From the IMG/VR virus record IMGVR_UViG_3300042565_000657, positions 1-22,377 of that record: a stretch of 22,377 nt of DNA; one strand, written 5' to 3'. Below the pieces are notes generated by a model that was not told the DNA's origin, ran no database searches, and saw only the letters and a program-made list of their open reading frames with translations. Of the stretch, positions 4,222-20,881 are shown piece after piece (position 1 is the first letter of the stretch; the number at the start of each line of letters is the position of its first letter). Origin of the DNA: a virus. The translations under genes were made by a program, and so were the position numbers.

Positions 4222-6134
4222 TTTGGATTGATTTCGAAACGCGTAGCGAGTGTGACCTGATCGCTCGCGGGGCATATAATTACAGTCGCCACCCGTCGAC
4301 GCAGGTGCTCTGCATGGCCTATGCGATCGATGATGGCGAAGTCGAGCTGTGGACGCCCGATCAGCCGTTCCCGCGTGAGATCCTGACGCATCAGATACGC
4401 GCGCACAACGCGGCGTTCGAACGTCTGATTCTCTGGTACGTGCTCTGCCCCGATCTTGACCTGCCGGAGCCTGCGCTGGAGCAGTTTTACTGCACCGCCG
4501 CGCAAGCGCGGTCGAACTGTGCGCCTGGTAGCCTTGAGGACGTCGGGCGCTTCGCGGGCGCCAGCATGAAGAAAGACCACAAGGGCGCTGCGCTCGTGCG
4601 GAAGTGCTGCCTGCCACCGTTCAAGCACACCGCCGACGACTTGGCCGCGCTGTTCGAGTATTGCAAACAGGACGTCCGCGCCATGCGCGCGATCAGTAAG
4701 AGTCTGCGCGACCTGTCGCCTGAAGAGCTTGCCGACTACCACGTCAACGAGCGCATTAACGACCGAGGCGTGAAGGTCGACGTCGAGCTGTGCCTTGCCG
4801 CCATGCGTTACAGCGAGGCCGAGCGGGTTGAGATCGAGGCGCGCGTTGTCGAGCTGACCGAGGGCGCGGTGACGTCCGTGCGATCGCCTAAGATGCGCCA
4901 GTGGGTGCTGGAACGCCTTGGGCCGGAGGCGCGCAAGCTCGCCCGATCAAAAGACAAAGACTCGATAGACAAGACCGTGCGAGCGAACCTGCTTGCGATG
5001 GAGAACCCCGATGAGGTACCGCCCGCTGTTGCCGAGGTCATCCAATGCGCAGACGACCTCTGGGCGTCGAGCACTGCGAAGTTTGGCCGCCTCGCGGCTC
5101 TGGCTGATGATGAAGATCAGAGAGTACGAGGCGCATTTGTTTTTGCTGGAGGCGCAGCGACAGGCCGCGCTGCGAGCTATGGCGCTCAGGTACACAACTT
5201 CCCTCGGAAGTCCGCCAAAGAGCCCACTGAACTTCGACACGCCCTCGTACGAGGCCACGCTGTCGTGCCTCGGTTCGGAAAGCGAGTCACCGACGCCCTG
5301 AAGTCGATGTTGCGTCCGGCGCTAGTGGCCGATCATTCGTTTGTCGTCGCCGACTGGAGCGCGATCGAGGGCCGGGTCAATCCGTGGCTATGCGGCGCTG
5401 AAGCGAAGTTAGACATCTTCCGGCAGCAGCTAGACCCGTACAAGGTCAACGCGGCGGCCACCTATGGCGTCCAATATTTGGACGTCACCGACGAGCAGCG
5501 CCAAGTCGGCAAGGTGCAAGAGCTGGCGCTCGGGTTCGGCGGCAGCACCGGCGCGTTTGCTGCGATGGGCCGGGGCTATGGCGTGCGGTTTGAAGAAGCC
5601 CAAGCCCGTCGGATCGTCGACGCCTGGCGCCGCGCGAACCCGTGGGCCGTGATGTTCTGGCAAGACCTTGAGCGCGCGTACATGTCCGCCATGCGTCATC
5701 CGGGCCATGAGTTCACGGCGGGCCGTATAACGTATGTCTACGACAAGCAGCACCTTTGGTACATGCTGCCCAGCGGGCGCGTGCTCTGCTACCCGTTTGC
5801 CAAGTTCGAGGGCGAGCACCTGACCTACGCCAAGGCGTCATGGAAGCCTGCGGCTGACGCGACCGAGTGGCCGCGTGCGCGCTTGTGGGGCGGGCTCGCT
5901 TGCGAGAATGTGACGCAGGCAAGTGCTCACTGTCTGTTGCGTCACGCGATACGCGAGGCTGACAGGCTGGGCCTTGCGGTCGTAACGACAGTGCATGACG
6001 AGATCGTTATCGAGACGGCTGAGCCTGAACGGGTGCGGGCCGAGCTTGAGCGTATCATGGTGACCCCGCCCGATTGGGCGGTGGGGTTGCCGCTCGCCGT
6101 TGAGGCCAAGATCATGGCCGTTTACGGTAAATAA
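4212..6134 (+). CDS. DNA polymerase I-like (family A) with 3'-5' exonuclease
   Basis: The 640-residue replicative polymerase has an N-terminal DEDDy exonuclease: WIDFETRS (Asp7, Glu9), AHNAAFERLIL (exo II) and EYCKQDVRAM (exo III, Tyr150/Asp154). The polymerase domain shows motif A in VVADWSAIEGR (Asp381), the O-helix motif B RQVGKVQELALGFGG (Arg430, Lys434), and motif C TTVHDEIVIE (His595-Asp596-Glu597). It would copy the phage genome together with the primase/helicase encoded next. By counting from Lys434, residue 442 is Phe where most family A enzymes have Tyr (Tyr766 in E. coli Pol I), a possible fidelity change. There is no 5'-3' nuclease domain. The start overlaps the upstream stop by 10 nt. 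Confidence 0.95.
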   Translation: MGIVWIDFETRSECDLIARGAYNYSRHPSTQVLCMAYAIDDGEVELWTPDQPFPREILTHQIRAHNAAFERLILWYVLCPDLDLPEPALEQFYCTAAQARSNCAPGSLEDVGRFAGASMKKDHKGAALVRKCCLPPFKHTADDLAALFEYCKQDVRAMRAISKSLRDLSPEELADYHVNERINDRGVKVDVELCLAAMRYSEAERVEIEARVVELTEGAVTSVRSPKMRQWVLERLGPEARKLARSKDKDSIDKTVRANLLAMENPDEVPPAVAEVIQCADDLWASSTAKFGRLAALADDEDQRVRGAFVFAGGAATGRAASYGAQVHNFPRKSAKEPTELRHALVRGHAVVPRFGKRVTDALKSMLRPALVADHSFVVADWSAIEGRVNPWLCGAEAKLDIFRQQLDPYKVNAAATYGVQYLDVTDEQRQVGKVQELALGFGGSTGAFAAMGRGYGVRFEEAQARRIVDAWRRANPWAVMFWQDLERAYMSAMRHPGHEFTAGRITYVYDKQHLWYMLPSGRVLCYPFAKFEGEHLTYAKASWKPAADATEWPRARLWGGLACENVTQASAHCLLRHAIREADRLGLAVVTTVHDEIVIETAEPERVRAELERIMVTPPDWAVGLPLAVEAKIMAVYGK

Positions 6135-6137
6135 AAA

Positions 6138-6157
6138 CGCCCGCTGGCAGGCGGGCG
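6138..6157. other. GC-rich hairpin between polymerase and primase genes
   Basis: CGCCCGC (6138-6144) pairs perfectly with GCGGGCG (6151-6157) around TGGCAG. On the plus strand there is no U-tract; the AGGAG ribosome site of the primase follows directly. On the minus strand the stem is followed by TTTTTATTTA, so it could terminate antisense transcription. Confidence 0.5.
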
Positions 6158-6168
6158 CAGGAGAAGCT

Positions 6169-8490
6169 ATGAATTTCGAGCAGTTTATCATCAATCTGGC
6201 GCCCGAGGGCGAGACAGCGTTATTTGTGCGCCAGAAGCCACGCCGTGACGCGAACGGCGAATTGCAGTATCACGCCGACGGCGCGCTGAAGGCGTCATGG
6301 CCGGCCATGCTGCCGGACCTGTCGAAGGTGCGTGAGGGTGCCTGGTACGGCAACACTGGGTCATTTGTCATTGATCGGTTTGAGCAGGGTCGCCCGTCCG
6401 CGAGCGCAGCGAACGTCGACTATGTGTTGGTCATGGTGCTGGATGACGTGGGCGAGCCTAGCAAGGCGCCCAAGACCTCGCCTGTCCCGCCGACGTGGAT
6501 CATGGAGACGAGCGCCGGATCGTATCAGTGGGGCTATGCCTTCGACCCCGAGGACCAACCGACCAAAGCGGCCTACAGCGCCGCCATCCGCGCGATTGCG
6601 GAAGCCGGTTACAGTGACCCTGGCGCGATCAATCCGGTTCGCAATTTCCGACTACCGGGTAGCGTCAACCTGAAGCCGGACAAGGGCGGCTTTCAAGCGC
6701 GTCTCGTCGAGTTCCACCCCGAGCGGGTCTATCGGCTGCCGGACCTCTGCGCCGCTCTCGGTGTCGACCCGGGGCCGGACGACAGCGCGGGCGTGCGGCC
6801 CGTGCGCCTGTCGGACGATGGGGCTGATGACGTGCTCGCGTGGCTGTCGGCGCAGGGGCTGGTGCTGTCGCGCCCGAACCCGGAGGGCTGGGCTGGGGTT
6901 GTATGCCCGAACAGCGCCGACCACAGCGATGGCAACCCCGAGGGCCGTTATCTGGGCTTGACGCGCGCGTATTGCTGTTATCACGGCCATTGTGGCGATT
7001 GGGACAGCGCGCGCTTCCTCGCGTGGGTCGCAGAGCAGGGCGGCCCTAAGCATACGCCTGGGCTGCGCGACGAGCTTCTGACGCAGCGCATGGCCGAGGT
7101 CATGGCTAAGTTGACGCCGACCGAGGAATACCCCGACGCTGCGGCTGCGGTGGTGGCCGAGGTCGAGCGCCGTGAGGCCGGGCGGCTTGAGCGGGCCGAG
7201 TGGTTTGAACGGTACGCTTATGTCGCGGACGGGGATTGTTATTTCGACCTGACCGAGCGTCGAGAGTTGACGCGCCAGACGTTTAACGCGCTCTACCGGC
7301 ATGTGACGTGCTGGTCGGTTCACGCCACGGGCGCGAAGAAGCGCCGGGTTGAGGCGTCTATCAGCTTTGACGAGAACCGGCAGGCCATGGGCGCTCGGGT
7401 GCTTGAGGGGCTGACCTACGCTGCGGGCGAATCGATCATCTGCGCTCGTGACGGGCTTGCGTACGGGAACCGTTGGCGTGACGCGCGGCCCGAGGGCCGA
7501 TCGGGTGACGTGTCGCCGTGGCTCGCGCACGTCGAGCGCCTGGTGCCTGACGCGCGCGAGCGCGAGCATCTGTTAAACGTGCTGGCCTTTAAGGTCCAGC
7601 ATCCTAAGGTCAAGATTAATCACGGCATTCTGTTCGCGGGCGTGCCGGGTTGCGGTAAAGATTCGCTTTTTGCGCCGTTTTTGTACGCGATCGGCGGTAA
7701 AGACCTTGGGAACGTGGCGCTGGTGCGGAACGAGGAAGTCACAAGTAGTTGGGGTTACGCGCTTGAGTCTGAGGTACTGGTAGTCAACGAATTGCGCCAA
7801 GCCGAGGCCAAAGACCGTCGCGCGCTTGAGAATCAATTGAAGCCCTTGCTGGCTGCGCCACCCGAGGTGCTGCCCGTCAATCGCAAATATTTGGCGCCCT
7901 ACATGAGCGCGAACCGCTTGCTGGTGGTGGCGTTCTCGAATGAGCGCATCCCGATCGCGCTCCCGTCTGACGATCGGCGCTGGTTTGTCATCTGGACGTC
8001 AGCGCCGAGGATGACCGAGGCGGATTCGAGCGCGTTGTGGGCGTGGTATATGGCCGGCGGACGTGAGGCGGTGGCGGGCTACCTGCGCGCCCGCGACGTG
8101 TCGGCGTTCGAACCTGGCGCGACGCCTATGGTGACCGAGGCGAAGCGCATGATGACCGAGGCGGGCATGTCGCCTGTCGAATCCTACCTTTTGGAATTGA
8201 TTAGGGGCCGTATAGGCGAGTTTTCCTCGGGCGTGGTGTCTGCCCCTTGGCAAGAACTTTGCGGGCGCCTGAGCGCTCTTGCGCCGTCTGGCGCGAGGGT
8301 GCCTGTATCGGCACTGTTTCACGCGCTGGCCGAGGCGGGCTGGCTCGACTGCGGGATGTGTCACTCGCGCGAACATCCGACGAAACGTCATCTGTATTGC
8401 GCGCCTGATTTGGCCGAACTTGGCAAGGCTGAACTGCGACGGCTGAGCGAGCGACCGACGGGCGGTGGCGCTCTCCGCGCTGTCAAATAA
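6169..8490 (+). CDS. Primase-helicase (RepB/AEP-like primase plus DUF5906-type SF3 helicase)
   Basis: The 773-residue fusion has two halves. The N-terminal part resembles an archaeo-eukaryotic-type or RepB-like primase: VMVLDDVGE (Asp92, Asp93), SAGSYQWGYAF (about 115-125) and NPVRNFRLPGSVN (about 155-167). A Cys/His cluster (Cys246, His252, Cys269, Cys270, His272, His274, Cys275) looks like a zinc site. The C-terminal half is an SF3-like helicase with Walker A GVPGCGKDS (491-499), Walker B VLVVNEL (about 536-542) and sensor RLLVVAFSNERIP, as in DUF5906 phage helicases. It would prime and unwind DNA for the adjacent polymerase. The start at 6169 is set by AGGAG 6 nt upstream; an upstream ATG at 6100 lies inside the polymerase gene. 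Converging transcription ends in the shared terminator just downstream. Confidence 0.9.
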   Translation: MNFEQFIINLAPEGETALFVRQKPRRDANGELQYHADGALKASWPAMLPDLSKVREGAWYGNTGSFVIDRFEQGRPSASAANVDYVLVMVLDDVGEPSKAPKTSPVPPTWIMETSAGSYQWGYAFDPEDQPTKAAYSAAIRAIAEAGYSDPGAINPVRNFRLPGSVNLKPDKGGFQARLVEFHPERVYRLPDLCAALGVDPGPDDSAGVRPVRLSDDGADDVLAWLSAQGLVLSRPNPEGWAGVVCPNSADHSDGNPEGRYLGLTRAYCCYHGHCGDWDSARFLAWVAEQGGPKHTPGLRDELLTQRMAEVMAKLTPTEEYPDAAAAVVAEVERREAGRLERAEWFERYAYVADGDCYFDLTERRELTRQTFNALYRHVTCWSVHATGAKKRRVEASISFDENRQAMGARVLEGLTYAAGESIICARDGLAYGNRWRDARPEGRSGDVSPWLAHVERLVPDAREREHLLNVLAFKVQHPKVKINHGILFAGVPGCGKDSLFAPFLYAIGGKDLGNVALVRNEEVTSSWGYALESEVLVVNELRQAEAKDRRALENQLKPLLAAPPEVLPVNRKYLAPYMSANRLLVVAFSNERIPIALPSDDRRWFVIWTSAPRMTEADSSALWAWYMAGGREAVAGYLRARDVSAFEPGATPMVTEAKRMMTEAGMSPVESYLLELIRGRIGEFSSGVVSAPWQELCGRLSALAPSGARVPVSALFHALAEAGWLDCGMCHSREHPTKRHLYCAPDLAELGKAELRRLSERPTGGGALRAVK

Positions 8491-8966: not shown

Positions 8967-9335
8967 TCAGGCTCCAACGGTTTGCGCGCTCGCGTGCGCG
9001 CGATCGATAACAGTCTCGAATTTCTCGAGCCCCACGCGATCAACGAGCGCGTCAATATCGGCGAGCGCGCACTGGCGTGCTTCGGCGAGCGTGAGCGAGC
9101 GCGACGATATCGGCATGCCCTTGAAGTGAGCATTAACGCGCAGTAGGCGATAGCCCGATACCGGATCGGATACGATCCATTCTCGGCGATCCTTCGGAAT
9201 ACCGGCGGTCTGCTCGCGATGCAGTGCGAATATGTGCGCACGGGTTCCGCGCATGTAGGCTAGGCGATCGTATTTCACGTCGACGATTTTGTCCGAACCC
9301 TTGACGCGCATGCTAAAGGTAGGCTTTGTTGGCAT
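8967..9335 (-). CDS. Hypothetical protein (122 aa)
   Basis: The 122-residue basic protein begins MPTKPTFSMRVKGSDKIVDV and has a beta-rich N-terminal half (GSDKIVDVKYDRLAYMRG, REWIVSDPVSGYRLLRVNAH). A helical end follows (SLTLAEARQCALADIDALVDRVG). I cannot name a family. GGAG at 9345-9348 lies 9 nt upstream of the ATG, and the gene follows the Gp88-like gene by 4 nt, so the two are co-transcribed. The alternation of charged strand and helix fits a small regulatory or nucleic-acid-binding protein, but this is only an impression. Confidence 0.75.
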   Translation of the reverse strand: MPTKPTFSMRVKGSDKIVDVKYDRLAYMRGTRAHIFALHREQTAGIPKDRREWIVSDPVSGYRLLRVNAHFKGMPISSRSLTLAEARQCALADIDALVDRVGLEKFETVIDRAHASAQTVGA

Positions 9336-9339
9336 GGTT

Positions 9340-10002
9340 TTACGCTCCGAGCTTGATATCGATCACACGTTTACGCGAACCATGCGCTGGGAAGCCGACG
9401 ATCACGTCACGCTGCCGGCTGCATAGCTGACACGTCGCGCAACTAACGTCGTCGCGTTGCGTAGCAGGGCAGACGACGACGCGTCGCCCAGCGGGTGTGC
9501 GAGTGTTTTCGGTCGTGGTCGACGGTAGCACGCAAACGACCGGACCGGCGCCGGTGTCGGCGAGCGTGTCCGCGTCGGCGAGATCGTTCGCGGACAGGTT
9601 GACCGTAAAACCCCATTCGTTAGCAGTCTTGATCCAGTTTAGGGACGAGCGATCGCGGTAATGAGAATAGGTAAACCCGCGACGCCCGCGATTAGCTGCG
9701 ACGAGTTCGCCAAGCGCGACCGGGTCGACCGTCGCGCCATCGCCCGGCAGATCGCCGGCTTGGTTGTGGCGCCACAATTGACCGGCGGGCAGTTGCGCGA
9801 TCGCGTCGACGAAGGTCGACCAATCAGTCCCACGCGCGCCCGATGACACTGCGGACCAATGGAGCGCGAGCGGACCGGACGACGCGTAGCACGCGTCGCG
9901 CATGGCGCACGACGTCGGACAGGTTTCGCGCGTCGTGGTCGATACAGGGATCGGACCGGTTTTCGCGTTCGCGGATTTCAGGGACAGATGAACTTGATAC
10001 AT
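9340..10002 (-). CDS. Cysteine-rich phage protein resembling Gp88/DUF7227
   Basis: The 220-residue protein has two cysteine clusters. One is at the N-terminus, ETCPTSCAMRDACYA (Cys28, Cys32, Cys38); the other is near the C-terminus, VVCPATQRDDVSCATCQLC (Cys178, Cys188, Cys191, Cys194). Between them are LWRHNQAGDLPGDG, RRGFTYSHYR and FTVNLSANDLADADTL, read as a barrel-like alpha/beta core. Phage Gp88-like proteins share the CPxxC...CYA start; their activity is not established. The clusters could bind an Fe-S centre or zinc. It is the second gene of the minus-strand operon, with its own GGAG ribosome site and a leader (GGAGCCGACACC before ATG) identical to that of the gene before it. Confidence 0.75.
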   Translation of the reverse strand: MYQVHLSLKSANAKTGPIPVSTTTRETCPTSCAMRDACYASSGPLALHWSAVSSGARGTDWSTFVDAIAQLPAGQLWRHNQAGDLPGDGATVDPVALGELVAANRGRRGFTYSHYRDRSSLNWIKTANEWGFTVNLSANDLADADTLADTGAGPVVCVLPSTTTENTRTPAGRRVVVCPATQRDDVSCATCQLCSRQRDVIVGFPAHGSRKRVIDIKLGA

Positions 10003-10025
10003 GGTGTCGGCTCCAGAGTTGAGAG

Positions 10026-10041
10026 CGCGCCCGTAGGCGCG
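10026..10041 (-). other. GC-rich hairpin in the leader of the Gp88-like gene
   Basis: CGCGCC (10026-10031) pairs with GGCGCG (10036-10041) around CGTA. The core GCGCCCGTAGGCGC is nearly identical to that of the terminator at 8497-8510 (GCGCCCGCAGGCGC). On the minus strand it lies shortly before the GGAG ribosome site of the Gp88-like gene. Confidence 0.45.
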
Positions 10042-10049
10042 GGGGTTAG

Positions 10050-10235
10050 TTAAACAATCCAGTCAGGCGAGCTGGTGAGCCCGTGCGCAGCGGCGATCGC
10101 GGCGATCTCACGTTGCTGCGTGGCGCGCATGGCGGAACGATGAAGGGCGGAGAGCACGCGCGCAGCATAGTCAGCGCCGAGCGCGGGTAGGCGCGCGAGC
10201 GCGGTGTTGACGGTTGATTGTTGGTGCTTGGTCAT
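10050..10235 (-). CDS. Small hypothetical protein (61 aa), first gene of the minus-strand operon
   Basis: The 61-residue protein begins MTKHQQSTVNTALARLPALG and continues ADYAARVLSALHRSAMRATQ. It is likely wholly helical, basic, and ends SSPDWIV. The start at 10235 is chosen because AGGAG lies 8 nt upstream and a TTGACA promoter sits at about -78. The frame stays open to 10337, but that extension covers the promoter. A role as a small DNA- or RNA-binding helical protein is possible; the family is not recognised. Confidence 0.65.
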   Translation of the reverse strand: MTKHQQSTVNTALARLPALGADYAARVLSALHRSAMRATQQREIAAIAAAHGLTSSPDWIV

Positions 10236-10283
10236 GGTGTCGGCTCCTGGGTTGTTGGCGCGCTCACGCGAGCGCATGGCGAC

Positions 10284-10313
10284 ATCTTGCCACATGTTTT
10301 GTAGCAGTGTCAA
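10284..10313 (-). promoter_or_regulatory. Candidate promoter for the minus-strand operon
   Basis: On the minus strand a perfect -35 TTGACA (10313-10308) is followed after 18 bp by CAAGAT (10289-10284), a weak -10. Transcription would begin near 10277, about 40 nt before ATG 10235. A GCGCTC/GAGCGC hairpin would form at the start of the message (about 10261-10275). Confidence 0.4.
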
Positions 10314-10456
10314 CCCATGCTCTAAAGTTTGTTCCATTTTTCACTACCCCACGCAAATTGTGTGGCGTGCTGCGACAAGTCTTAGGGCATGGGTGAGGTG
10401 GGGCGCGCGTGGGTTAGGGGCGTGGGTGGTGCGGCGGATAGCATGCGCGCCTCTGG

Positions 10457-10583
10457 GTGGGGTAGCATGGGGTAGTAGGTAGTATCTTAAAAATGTTTTG
10501 TGTTTATACTGTATATATATACAGTAGTGTAAATTATAGGGACTTTTTTTAGGGGGGTGCCCCAGCTACCCCAACTACCCCAC
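10457..10583. repeat. Inverted repeat arms flanking the LexA box
   Basis: The left arm 10457-10475 reads, in reverse complement, CTACCCCATGCTACCCCAC. The right arm 10566-10583 reads CTACCCCAACTACCCCAC. They match except for the 1-2 nt linker. The midpoint of the pair is about 10520, within 4 nt of the centre of the SOS box. Confidence 0.7.
10507..10526. promoter_or_regulatory. Consensus LexA (SOS) box
   Basis: TACTGTATATATATACAGTA is a perfect 20-bp palindrome identical to the consensus LexA operator of E. coli-type LexA (CTGT-N8-ACAG core at 10509-10524). On the minus strand a TATAAT (10538-10533) lies just before it, so the box would cover the start site of a minus-strand transcript. A TTTATA/TATACT-like sequence overlaps it on the plus strand. 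It suggests that a phage promoter is held by the host LexA protein and released by DNA damage. Confidence 0.75.
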
Positions 10584-10608
10584 GGCACCGCGCCCACGGC
10601 ACCGCGCC
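10581..10608. repeat. 14-bp tandem duplication
   Basis: CACGGCACCGCGCC occurs twice head to tail (10581-10594 and 10595-10608) with no mismatch, next to the right inverted-repeat arm. Confidence 0.85.
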
Positions 10609-10800
10609 ACCACGCCGGGTGCTGTGGGGTACCCCACGCAAAACGTAAAACCGGTTTGTCATCGGACTGCCCCACGCTGCCCACGTTCGCATGGCCAGGT
10701 GATGCCAGGCAAGCGTCTATCGATCCGTGGGGCACTACCCCACGCCACCCTACGGGCTACCGGTTGTCGGGGTGCTACCCCACGCCACCCAGCGAGGCGG

Positions 10801-10863
10801 GCTGACGGCTGACGGCTGACGGCTGACGGCTGACGGCTGACGGCTGACGGCTGGCGGCTGGCG
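10801..10863. repeat. Heptamer tandem repeat
   Basis: Seven perfect copies of GCTGACG (10801-10849) are followed by two GCTGGCG copies (10850-10863). The 7-bp period is not a multiple of three, and the frames through it give only low-complexity peptides, so it is non-coding. Confidence 0.95.
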
Positions 10864-10951
10864 GATCGGGGTCGCGTGGTGAGAGCCCCCGGTGGGGGCC
10901 GGCGACCGGGCCGGTCAAAAACGGAGGTGTCGCACAAATTTTTTTGCAAAG

Positions 10952-10960
10952 TGCTATAAT
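10952..10960 (+). promoter_or_regulatory. Extended -10 promoter for the terminase operon
   Basis: TGC-TATAAT is a perfect -10 hexamer with the TG extension. No good -35 is seen, as is usual for this class. Transcription would start near 10967, about 29 nt before ATG 10996. Confidence 0.6.
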
Positions 10961-10995: not shown

Positions 10996-11436
10996 ATGAC
11001 CTTCCAATCCTTGCCGCTTACCGCGCGCAAACTAGAGGCGACCGAGGCGCGCTTGCAGCGCATCTACGAGGCTGCCAAGTTGGGTCTAAAAGGTGACTCG
11101 CTGGCGTTAAAGGCTGGCATGTTGCCGACCGAGTATCGGCGTCTATGCGAGATGGACCCGATTGCCGAAATGGCAGAACAGAAGGGGCGCGCTGACGCAG
11201 AAGGGGCGCTTGCGACTGTGATGATGGACGCGGCTATGTCAGGCGACACCAAAGCGGCGCTAGAGATTCTTCGCCACAGACATGACTGGGTGGCTAAGCA
11301 ACAAGTGCAGATCGACGTGGCGCAGCAGATCAGCGTAATATCGGCGCTTGAGAAAGCAGAGCAGCGCGTCATCGACGTGCAGGTAACAGAGCGACTGGAG
11401 CCAACACTTGCAGCAGCCGATCTACAACGCCTCTGA
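10996..11436 (+). CDS. terS: Terminase small subunit
   Basis: The 146-residue protein lies directly before and overlaps the large terminase gene, the usual place of the small subunit. Residues about 20-55 (RIYEAAKLGLKGDSLALKAG, then MLPTEYRRLCEMDP) form a helix-turn-helix-like DNA-binding domain that would recognise the packaging site. A helical oligomerisation core follows (AEGALATVMMDAAMSGDTKA, ALEILRHRHDW), and the end (ISALEKAEQRVIDVQVTERL) should contact the large subunit. Only a weak ribosome site precedes the ATG. The assignment rests on position, size and domain layout. Confidence 0.85.
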   Translation: MTFQSLPLTARKLEATEARLQRIYEAAKLGLKGDSLALKAGMLPTEYRRLCEMDPIAEMAEQKGRADAEGALATVMMDAAMSGDTKAALEILRHRHDWVAKQQVQIDVAQQISVISALEKAEQRVIDVQVTERLEPTLAAADLQRL

Positions 11437-12934
11437 TGAAATGCTCTTGATGACGCGGCTCTGGCAGCCGCGCATCAAAGACGACCCGGAAGCGTTTGTA
11501 AACTTTGCGTTCCCGTGGGGGCAGCACGGCACGCCACTAGCCAACTATAAAGGCCCGCGCAAGTGGCAGCGCCAGGTGCTGCGGAAGATTACGCAGCACA
11601 TCAAAGACAACGGCGGCAAAGTTGACTACAACGTCTTCCGGCTGGCGGTCGCGTCAGGCCGGGGAATCGGTAAATCGGCGCTAGTCAGTTGGCTTGTGCT
11701 GTGGATGCTCTCCACGCGCATTGGCTCGACAACCATCGTGTCGGCCAACAGCGAAGCGCAGCTTCGCAGTATTACCTGGTCAGAAATCACCAAGTGGCTG
11801 GCGATGATGATCAACAGCCATTGGTTTGAGATCAGCGCGACCAAGGTCGCGCCAGCTAAGTGGCTGGCGGAGATTGTTGAGCGGGACTTGAAGAAAGGCA
11901 CGCGCTTCTGGTCGATCGAGGGCCGTCTGTGGTCGGAAGAGAACCCGGACGCTTACGCCGGTCTGCACAACCTGGACGGCGTGTGTCTGATCTTCGATGA
12001 GGCGTCTGGTATTCCGGACTCAATCTGGCAAGTGGCCGCCGGCTTCTTCACAGAAAACACGCCGCACAGGTTCTGGTTTGCCTTTTCCAACCCGCGCCGT
12101 AATCAAGGCTACTTCTTTGAGTGCTTCAACTCGAAGCGCGACTTTTGGTCGACAGAGAACATCGACGCCCGTGATGTCGAAGACACCGACAAACAGGTCT
12201 ACGAGCAGATCATCGCGGAGTACGGCGAAGACTCAATACAGGCCAAGGTCGAGGTGTATGGAGAATTTCCTAGCGCAGGCGACGATCAGTTCATCGGACC
12301 CGCGCTGGTCGATCAAGCGTTTGGCCGACCCAAGCACAGAGACGAAACAGCGCCAATTGTGATCGGCATTGACCCAGCCAGGTCGGGCGGTGACTCGACG
12401 GTCATTGCCATCAGGCAAGGGCGTGACATCATCGCAATCAAGCGGTACCGAGGTGATGATACGATGACGACCGTGGGGCACGTCATCGACGCGATCGAGG
12501 AATACAAACCGACGCTGACGGTGATCGACGAGGGTGGGCTGGGGTACGGCATACTTGACCGGCTAGTCGAACAGCGGTATAAGGTGCGTGGGGTCAACTT
12601 TGGCTGGAAAGCCAAGAACCAAGTGATGTGGGGTAACAAGCGCGCTGAGCTGTGGGGTGCGCTGCGGGACTGGTTAAGAACTGCGTCGATCGCGCCAGAC
12701 AGGCAACTGAAGGCGGATCTGACCGGGCCTAAGACCAAACCCGACTCAAGCGGTACAATCTTCTTGGAGAGCAAGAAGGATATGAAAGCCAGGGGTCTAG
12801 CTTCTCCTGACGCCGCCGATGCGATCGCGGTGACGTTCGCATTTCCTGTCGCCTCCCGCGAACCCCGAGCAACTATGCCCCGTCGCCACTACAGCGACCG
12901 CACCGCAGGCGCAACCGGCTGGATGGGCGCATGA
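11408..12934 (+). CDS. terL: Terminase large subunit (packaging ATPase/nuclease)
   Basis: The 508-residue motor protein pumps DNA into the prohead and cuts it. Walker A is AVASGRGIGKSAL (about 80-92), Walker B with the catalytic Glu is CLIFDEASG (Asp197, Glu198), and the coupling motif is FAFSNPRR (227-229). The C-terminal RNase H-like nuclease shows VIGIDPARSGGD (Asp322), TVIDEGGLG (Asp374) and SPDAADAIA (Asp468/Asp471). The start is TTG 11408: GGAG (11397-11400) sits 7 nt upstream, whereas the first in-frame ATG (11441) has no ribosome site. It overlaps the small subunit by 29 nt and the next gene by ATGA. Confidence 0.95.
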   Translation: MQQPIYNASDEMLLMTRLWQPRIKDDPEAFVNFAFPWGQHGTPLANYKGPRKWQRQVLRKITQHIKDNGGKVDYNVFRLAVASGRGIGKSALVSWLVLWMLSTRIGSTTIVSANSEAQLRSITWSEITKWLAMMINSHWFEISATKVAPAKWLAEIVERDLKKGTRFWSIEGRLWSEENPDAYAGLHNLDGVCLIFDEASGIPDSIWQVAAGFFTENTPHRFWFAFSNPRRNQGYFFECFNSKRDFWSTENIDARDVEDTDKQVYEQIIAEYGEDSIQAKVEVYGEFPSAGDDQFIGPALVDQAFGRPKHRDETAPIVIGIDPARSGGDSTVIAIRQGRDIIAIKRYRGDDTMTTVGHVIDAIEEYKPTLTVIDEGGLGYGILDRLVEQRYKVRGVNFGWKAKNQVMWGNKRAELWGALRDWLRTASIAPDRQLKADLTGPKTKPDSSGTIFLESKKDMKARGLASPDAADAIAVTFAFPVASREPRATMPRRHYSDRTAGATGWMGA

Positions 12935-20067: not shown

Positions 20068-20120
20068 ATGGCTAACAGTATTTTAACGATTGACATGATC
20101 ACCCGGAAAGCACTCGAGAT
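20068..20120 (+). CDS. Major coat protein, exon 1
   Basis: The first 53 nt of the coat gene encode MANSILTIDMITRKALEI, with a TAGGAG ribosome site at about 20050-20055. The phrase MANS.LT..MI.R.AL is the standard start of P22-type (gp5-like) coat proteins, which then continue with a LENNL-type segment. In the unspliced RNA the frame ends after ATT AAA at TAA 20125-20127. After removal of the intron (20121-20881), AT joins C of exon 2 to make an Ile codon. The last base of this exon is U, paired with G in P1, as group I splicing requires. Confidence 0.85.
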
Positions 20121-20881
20121 TAAATAATGGTCTCCTCTAGGGGAAACCCTAGTAGAAAAACTGTGTGAATTCGGTGGACGTCATGTAGAATGATTACATG
20201 AAAACACCGAGCCAAGCCAAAGATGAAACAAACCCCGACATCGACGCAGCAACCAAGCAACGCGACCAAAATCGCGAAGCTGCTGCTCGCTATCGGGAAC
20301 GCAACCGAGAAAAGCTCGCCCAGCGAATGCGCGATTGGCGGAAAGCAAATCGAGAAAAAGCTCGAGAGCATTCCCGTGAGTGGCGCAACCGGAAACTGGC
20401 AAACGCAAGTCCTGAAGAAGAAGCAGCAATCCGCGCTGCTGAATCTGCCAAGACAAAACGAAGCCAAGATCGGCGTAGAGACGAAGTGTTTGCCGCATAT
20501 GGCGGCTACAAATGCGTCTGCTGCGGAGAAGCTGAGCGAATGTTTTTGTCGATTGACCACATTGACAACAACGGCAACGTGGAACGAAAATCAGGTGCTT
20601 ACCGCAGTAGCGGCACCGCGTTCTACCTCTGGCTGTGCAAGAACAAGTTCCCTTCGGGGTATCAAGTTCTCTGCATGAATTGTCAAGTGGGCAAGCACAA
20701 AAACGGTGGCGTTTGTCCTCATCAGCGGAAGGTGTAACGACTATCCCGTAAGGGAGTACGGCCAAGCGGCCGGAAGCGCACAGCCCCTCGTAAGAGGGTG
20801 AAGAGATAGTCTGCTCTGCATGGTGACATGCAGCAGCCCGAAAGGGCGGTCAAGGCGTAGCGAACCTTGGCGAACACATGG
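20121..20881 (+). ncRNA. Group I self-splicing intron in the coat protein gene
   Basis: The 761-nt intron can be folded by eye. P1: exon GAGAU (20116-20120) with GUCUC (20130-20134), U·G at the splice site. P2: CUAGGG/CCCUAG with a GAAA loop (20137-20152). P3: CUGUGUG (20161-20167) with CGCACAG (20777-20783). P4: CGGUG/CACCG (20172-20176/20205-20209). P5: CAUGUA/UACAUG (20182-20187/20195-20200). P7: GACUAUC (20739-20745) with GAUAGUC (20805-20811). P7.1 and P7.2 (CCC/GGG, CGGCC/GGCCG, about 20745-20772) suggest class IA. P8: CCCUC/GAGGG (20785-20798). P9: CUGCAUG/CAUGCAG with GUGA (20816-20833). P9.1: GCCC/GGGC with GAAA (20836-20847). P9.2: CAAGG/CCUUG (20851-20869). The final base is G20881. 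Confidence 0.9.
20198..20737 (+). CDS. Intron-encoded HNH homing endonuclease
   Basis: This 179-residue protein lies wholly inside the group I intron, looped out of P6. The N-terminal part is a run of basic helical repeats (AAARYRERNREKLAQRMRDW, then RKANREKAREHSREWRNRKL) likely to grip DNA. The C-terminal HNH nuclease has CVCCGE (Cys106/Cys109), LSIDHIDNNGN (Asp120, His121, Asn125) and VLCMNCQVGKHKN (Cys159/Cys162). These fit two zinc-binding CxxC pairs around the catalytic His. It would cut intron-free coat genes to spread the intron. The ATG is the last triplet of P5, so translation and folding compete. The TAA ends 1 nt before P7. It is unrelated in layout to the NUMOD4/HNH gene at 3001. 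Confidence 0.9.
   Translation: MKTPSQAKDETNPDIDAATKQRDQNREAAARYRERNREKLAQRMRDWRKANREKAREHSREWRNRKLANASPEEEAAIRAAESAKTKRSQDRRRDEVFAAYGGYKCVCCGEAERMFLSIDHIDNNGNVERKSGAYRSSGTAFYLWLCKNKFPSGYQVLCMNCQVGKHKNGGVCPHQRKV

Follow-up and report, generated by a model that had tools for sequence, protein, structure and literature searches.

A perfect LexA consensus box in the control region of freshwater phages with no sign of lysogeny

The window analyzed here, a linear virus record from IMG/VR with 22,377 bases, carries a 20-bp palindrome that is probably an operator for the E. coli-type LexA of its host, kept by selection. The operator would hold the control or origin region of this apparently non-lysogenic phage in check until SOS. 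The palindrome (TACTGTATATATATACAGTA, positions 10507–10526) is identical to the published E. coli LexA consensus, TACTG(TA)5CAGTA with core CTGT-N8-ACAG (PMC9578287, PMC12527982), as a preliminary description of this DNA had claimed. It also lies where that description placed it, between minus-strand ORFs running from 10235/10337 to 8967 and the terminase genes terS and terL from 10996 onwards.

The gene content of the window is that of a phage with a P22-like portal. Genes for an exonuclease, a DNA methyltransferase, a DNA polymerase and a primase/helicase are followed by a short minus-strand operon and then by terminase, portal, scaffold and major capsid genes (Table 1). Behind the box, the minus-strand operon of the window (8967–10337) and of its relatives is a variable cargo slot: the small genes differ, and their starts lie about equally far from the box, often at 255–272 nt. 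One cargo-slot gene, in L090, resembles the DnaN sliding clamp (judged by eye). Examined for an antirepressor, the first genes behind the box encode a diverse set of small proteins to which no function is assigned.

Table 1. Features of the control region and neighboring genes, in window coordinates
Feature	Position	Strand	Remark
Primase/helicase-type replication protein, candidate repeat-binding initiator	6100..8490	+	RepB_primase and DUF5906 regions
122-aa protein, last in minus operon	8967..9335	-	Without family match
DUF7227 protein (PF23872), cysteine-rich	9340..10002	-	No assigned function
61-aa protein, first gene of minus operon	10050..10235	-	Slot filled by many unrelated small genes in relatives, at similar distance from the box
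Best candidate promoter of minus operon: TTGACA, 18 nt, TGG-CAAGAT (extended -10)	10284..10313	-	Kept in most close relatives
Left repeat cluster, two copies of TGGGGTAGxA	10458..10477	-	Inverted relative to right cluster
Most AT-rich 80-mer of the window, LexA box inside	10472..10551	.	23.75% GC versus 58%
LexA (SOS) box, perfect 20-bp consensus palindrome TACTGTATATATATACAGTA	10507..10526	.	Exact match
TATAAT of the preliminary description, doubtful promoter	10532..10537	-	No -35, not conserved
Right repeat cluster CCCCAGCTACCCCAACTACCCCA	10560..10582	+	
Further TACCCCA copies	10345, 10630, 10736, 10776 (+); 10625 (-)		
TGCTATAAT, candidate extended -10 promoter of terminase operon	10952..10960	+	In close relatives with and without LexA box
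terS, probable terminase small subunit	10996..11436	+	Position; weak PHROG matches; homologues conserved beside terL
terL, terminase large subunit	11408..12934	+	

No other site within three mismatches of the consensus occurs in the window, and dinucleotide-preserving shuffles of the window (n = 100) contain none. The exact 20-mer is found in 79 IMG/VR stretches, whereas two control palindromes of equal composition occur in 1 and 0. Homologues of window proteins are carried by 54 of these stretches, and nearly all of their boxes precede terS by a few hundred bases; 23 others are unrelated to the window and 2 only distantly related. Two of the unrelated viral contigs carry the same exact box in the usual SOS setting, between a SRAP gene and a gene for a UmuD-like S24 peptidase (L087) or beside a SRAP gene (L133), whereas the window family has no such genes beside its box.

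Because the 79 stretches were chosen by the box itself, a second set of relatives was gathered by TerL alone, with three queries. In it, 164 non-redundant loci extended far enough upstream, and about 1.6 kb before terL was searched in each. Exact sites were present in 10 loci, sites with up to three mismatches in 33 and sites with up to four in 40, most of them 770–950 nt upstream of terL. The same 164 sequences read backwards gave no site at up to four mismatches, and four control motifs with swapped half-sites gave none in the 164 relatives. A search of related phages had been suggested in the preliminary description; its outcome is these 40 of 164, versus 0 in reversed sequences. The 23 distinct variants depart from the consensus 8 times within the eight core positions and 50 times across the other twelve (binomial p = 1.3e-5), as would be expected of a CTGT-N8-ACAG site. 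The box evolves as a LexA site, with its core kept, its spacer free and its recurrence above chance.

Against the operator reading, the presence of the box is patchy. Most relatives are without it, and at least nine changes are needed on the TerL tree, so the box is dispensable; since such changes occur even among phages 99% identical in TerL, it is also readily exchanged or lost. Two relatives with TerL 98–99% like that of the window (L007 and L004) have no LexA box and carry a TGACCCA repeat type. L004 has a different primase and L007 does not, which argues that the control region is exchanged as a module. Complete or near-complete relatives that we examined have one site per genome. In L029 and L030, a second, weaker LexA-like site of the form CTGT-N8-CCAG lies 449 nt upstream of terL, near the terminase promoter. 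G002 has two near-terminal copies, considered as a possible second origin; a circular genome with overlapping ends, or a mixed assembly, is the likelier explanation. No GenBank phage has a similar control region at the DNA level.

The preliminary description had also noted a minus-strand TATAAT next to the box, and this motif is present (ATTATA on the plus strand). As a promoter it was rejected. It has no -35 element at 16–18 nt, is missing or changed in four close relatives (L143, L006, L010 and L129), and across 21 representatives there is no minus-strand promoter signal at the box (Fisher p = 0.83). The best candidate minus-strand promoter of the operon lies about 200 nt from the box. Somewhat more speaks for a rightward promoter that overlaps the box: the rightward signal across the 21 representatives, which are not fully independent, is weak (Fisher p = 0.004), and in several lineages the start of the box forms a rightward -10 element, TATACT. 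The window itself has no good sigma-70 promoter overlapping the box in either direction (rightward p = 0.59), which counts against the operator reading. Of the direct LexA control of a phage promoter that had been proposed, what stands is a conserved E. coli-type LexA site in a non-coding control region; that the site controls a promoter we only infer.

Nothing marks this phage as temperate, since matches to integrase, resolvase, CI/S24 repressor and ParA (PF00589, PF00239, PF00717, PF13614) number 0 in the 15–17 phage records of the family that were searched. The relatives tested reach 41 kb and several records may be fragments, so this absence is evidence rather than proof. In a TerL scan of bacterial assemblies, close relatives (62% or more) were found only on contigs of 7–36 kb from metagenome-assembled genomes (MAGs), and more distant matches (36–40%), judged by TerL similarity alone, on chromosomes. 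One relative, DSL-LC05, is predicted virulent by BACPHLIP (PMC10611076). The gene searches and the DSL-LC05 prediction do not support the analogy with temperate phages drawn in the preliminary description, and the lack of integrase, resolvase, S24 and ParA genes in the records searched led us to reject a prophage or phage-plasmid.

Of the mechanism we propose, the site, its constraint and its place are shown, whereas LexA binding, repression, the direction of repression and any benefit to the phage are inferred. In an undamaged cell, LexA would occupy this site, one of maximum affinity, on phage DNA that is entering or replicating, and keep the AT-rich core from opening. A closed core would most likely block rightward transcription, possibly leftward transcription and perhaps origin firing. 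Damage, or host nucleases processing phage DNA, would trigger SOS, and RecA-stimulated cleavage of LexA would free the region once SOS is on. Because no lysogeny genes were found, the box would tune or defer part of the lytic program rather than induce a prophage.

The surroundings of the box resemble an iteron origin. Around the box the window reaches its highest AT content, and clusters of a phage-specific repeat flank the box in inverted orientation. TACCCCA occurs nine times within 10345–10782, on both strands, and five times in the rest of the window. Other lineages carry other repeats (TGACCCA, TGACCTA, TGCCCACA, TGTCCACA, GGGGCGAAC and others), and the box stays constant while the flanking repeats vary between lineages. 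For 17 of 26 representatives, no more than one of 100 shuffles matches the inverted arms, which stand 23–40 nt to the left and 32–43 or 60–68 nt to the right of the box; the inverted arm of the window, taken alone, is not significant against shuffles. Repeats flanking an AT-rich stretch are also the layout of iteron origins. Short repeats flank an AT-rich stretch in SaPI origins, and SaPI/PICI and iteron-plasmid origins share with the window family both element-specific repeats of this kind and an encoded primase/helicase-type protein. A host LexA site in the AT-rich core is not known to us from SaPI/PICI or iteron-plasmid origins.

It is rather unlikely, in our judgment, that the box acts mainly as a replication switch, with the repeat-flanked AT-rich region as the phage origin, the primase/helicase bound to the repeats and LexA blocking melting until SOS. 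Besides the base composition and the inverted repeat clusters, such a switch would fit the replication protein with RepB_primase and DUF5906 regions encoded nearby. It would also fit L004 (TerL 99% like the window), in which TGACCCA repeats are accompanied by a primase like those of L014 and L020 (C-terminus 73–78% versus about 51%), as joint inheritance of repeat and initiator would predict. L007, however, combines the other repeat type with a window-like primase. The cumulative G–C skew of four relatives, only two of them near full length (38–41 kb), has no turn at the box and located no origin, and the repeats could equally be operators of some regulator. TerS is unlikely to be the repeat binder, because the TerS sequences of L004 and L007 look nearly identical to that of the window while their repeats differ. 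In its most specific form, a damage-sensing lock on a phage replication origin in which LexA sits in the AT-rich core between phage-specific iterons and bars replication until SOS, amounting to lytic deferment tied to DNA damage, we regard the origin idea as unlikely.

The ligand of the box is likely the host LexA. The variant in one phage, L217 (TACTGTATATAATAACAGTA), has exactly the sequence of the box that directly precedes the lexA match of a bacterial sequence (L185). Genomes related to a Rhodoferax MAG, the one whose assembly contains a relative, carry CTGT-N8-(A/C)CAG boxes at lexA, often in tandem, and the CTGT-N8-CCAG form seen at lexA in these Rhodoferax relatives is also that of the phage variant L255 and of the second sites of L029 and L030. 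Contig L209, which proved to be a different contig from that of the Rhodoferax MAG, was left out. The consensus box has the highest affinity for LexA (PMC9578287). These matches to lexA boxes, the consensus affinity and the lack of S24 matches in the family are the grounds on which we name host LexA. A point against is that none of 201 genomes from the candidate host family contains the exact 20-mer, so that the phage site is nearer the consensus than the host sites seen. The preliminary description had held that the box narrows the likely host; the box type fits beta- and gammaproteobacteria, and the MAG contigs carrying relatives point weakly to Burkholderiales as candidate host.

The palindrome could instead be the operator of a phage-encoded regulator that shares the LexA consensus by coincidence. 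Phage operators are often palindromes between divergent operons, and a small 'repressor protein C' is annotated in DSL-LC05. DSL-LC05 itself, though, has no CTGT-N8-ACAG site, the 17 phage records of the family have no S24 match and HTH_3 matches only below cut-off, and it is the bacterial LexA consensus that is kept across phages whose other control repeats differ. We consider a coincidental phage operator very unlikely.

Nor is the box likely to be a sponge, in which many maximum-affinity copies titrate LexA during replication and switch on host SOS genes for the phage. An exact consensus in place of a weaker natural site would suit a sponge, but E. coli contains on the order of a thousand LexA molecules and the complete or near-complete relatives examined offer a single site per genome, making titration highly improbable. 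That the box is a chance AT-rich palindrome without function, as its position in the most AT-rich stretch might suggest, is already refuted as far as sequence statistics reach, being excluded by the two database control palindromes, the reversed sequences and the swapped half-sites and opposed by the return of the box at the same place in relatives and by its constrained core.

Use of LexA is known in temperate phages, phage-plasmids and filamentous phages (PMC4551915, PMC6182141, PMC11652158, PMC3121763). In 186 (tum), N15 (antC), GIL01 (P1) and CTXphi, as probably in the window family, a phage control region holds an operator for the LexA of the host, so that phage genes can respond to DNA damage. 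Those elements keep a dormant state by a repressor or co-repressor, with LexA gating release, whereas no lysogeny or partition genes were found in the window family, and what stands beside its box, unlike in the four, is terminase genes and variable small genes. The closest idea appears to be lytic deferment, proposed for CtrA sites in alphaproteobacterial phages and Spo0A sites in phi29 as a means to time lysis (PMC9437464). Several of these phages are described as virulent, and they too have host transcription-factor sites in intergenic regions. With them the window family would share a site for a host regulator that is concentrated in intergenic control DNA, in a phage where no lysogeny genes were found. 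It differs in its factor, which would be LexA and respond to DNA damage, and in the single site that each genome has, placed in a divergent region with flanking repeats. The part of the literature covered describes no LexA site for this family or for a repeat-flanked region of this kind where phages lack lysogeny genes, and no such role of LexA in phages like these.

A perfect LexA operator recurs at one place in a large, uncultured, apparently non-lysogenic family of freshwater phages. Its position between early and late genes suggests that these phages read the host SOS alarm to time part of infection. If LexA binds, this would be DNA-damage sensing without lysogeny, and the lytic deferment idea would come to include the SOS response. 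It would also provide a testable link from UV or restriction damage to phage output in lakes.

Further features were seen outside the box. Between the control region and terS, at 10800–10864, the window has a heptamer tandem array, (GGCTGAC)9, and relatives carry other tandem heptamers near the same place (GGCGGTC, GGCAGGC, GGCTGGC). Upstream of terS, at about 10890–10950, a conserved block reads GGGCCGGCGACC..GCCGGTCAAAAACGGAGG and leads into a T-rich run. The block is present in most relatives, with the LexA box or without it, and is possibly a packaging site or a late leader. At 20111–20833 there is a group I intron (Rfam RF00028, E = 1.9e-5, below the gathering score) with an HNH endonuclease ORF. 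The intron apparently interrupts the 5' end of the major capsid gene, with a candidate first exon from the ATG at 20069. The 3' part of the intron shares about 80% identity with stretches of T4-like and other phages that are annotated near homing endonucleases.
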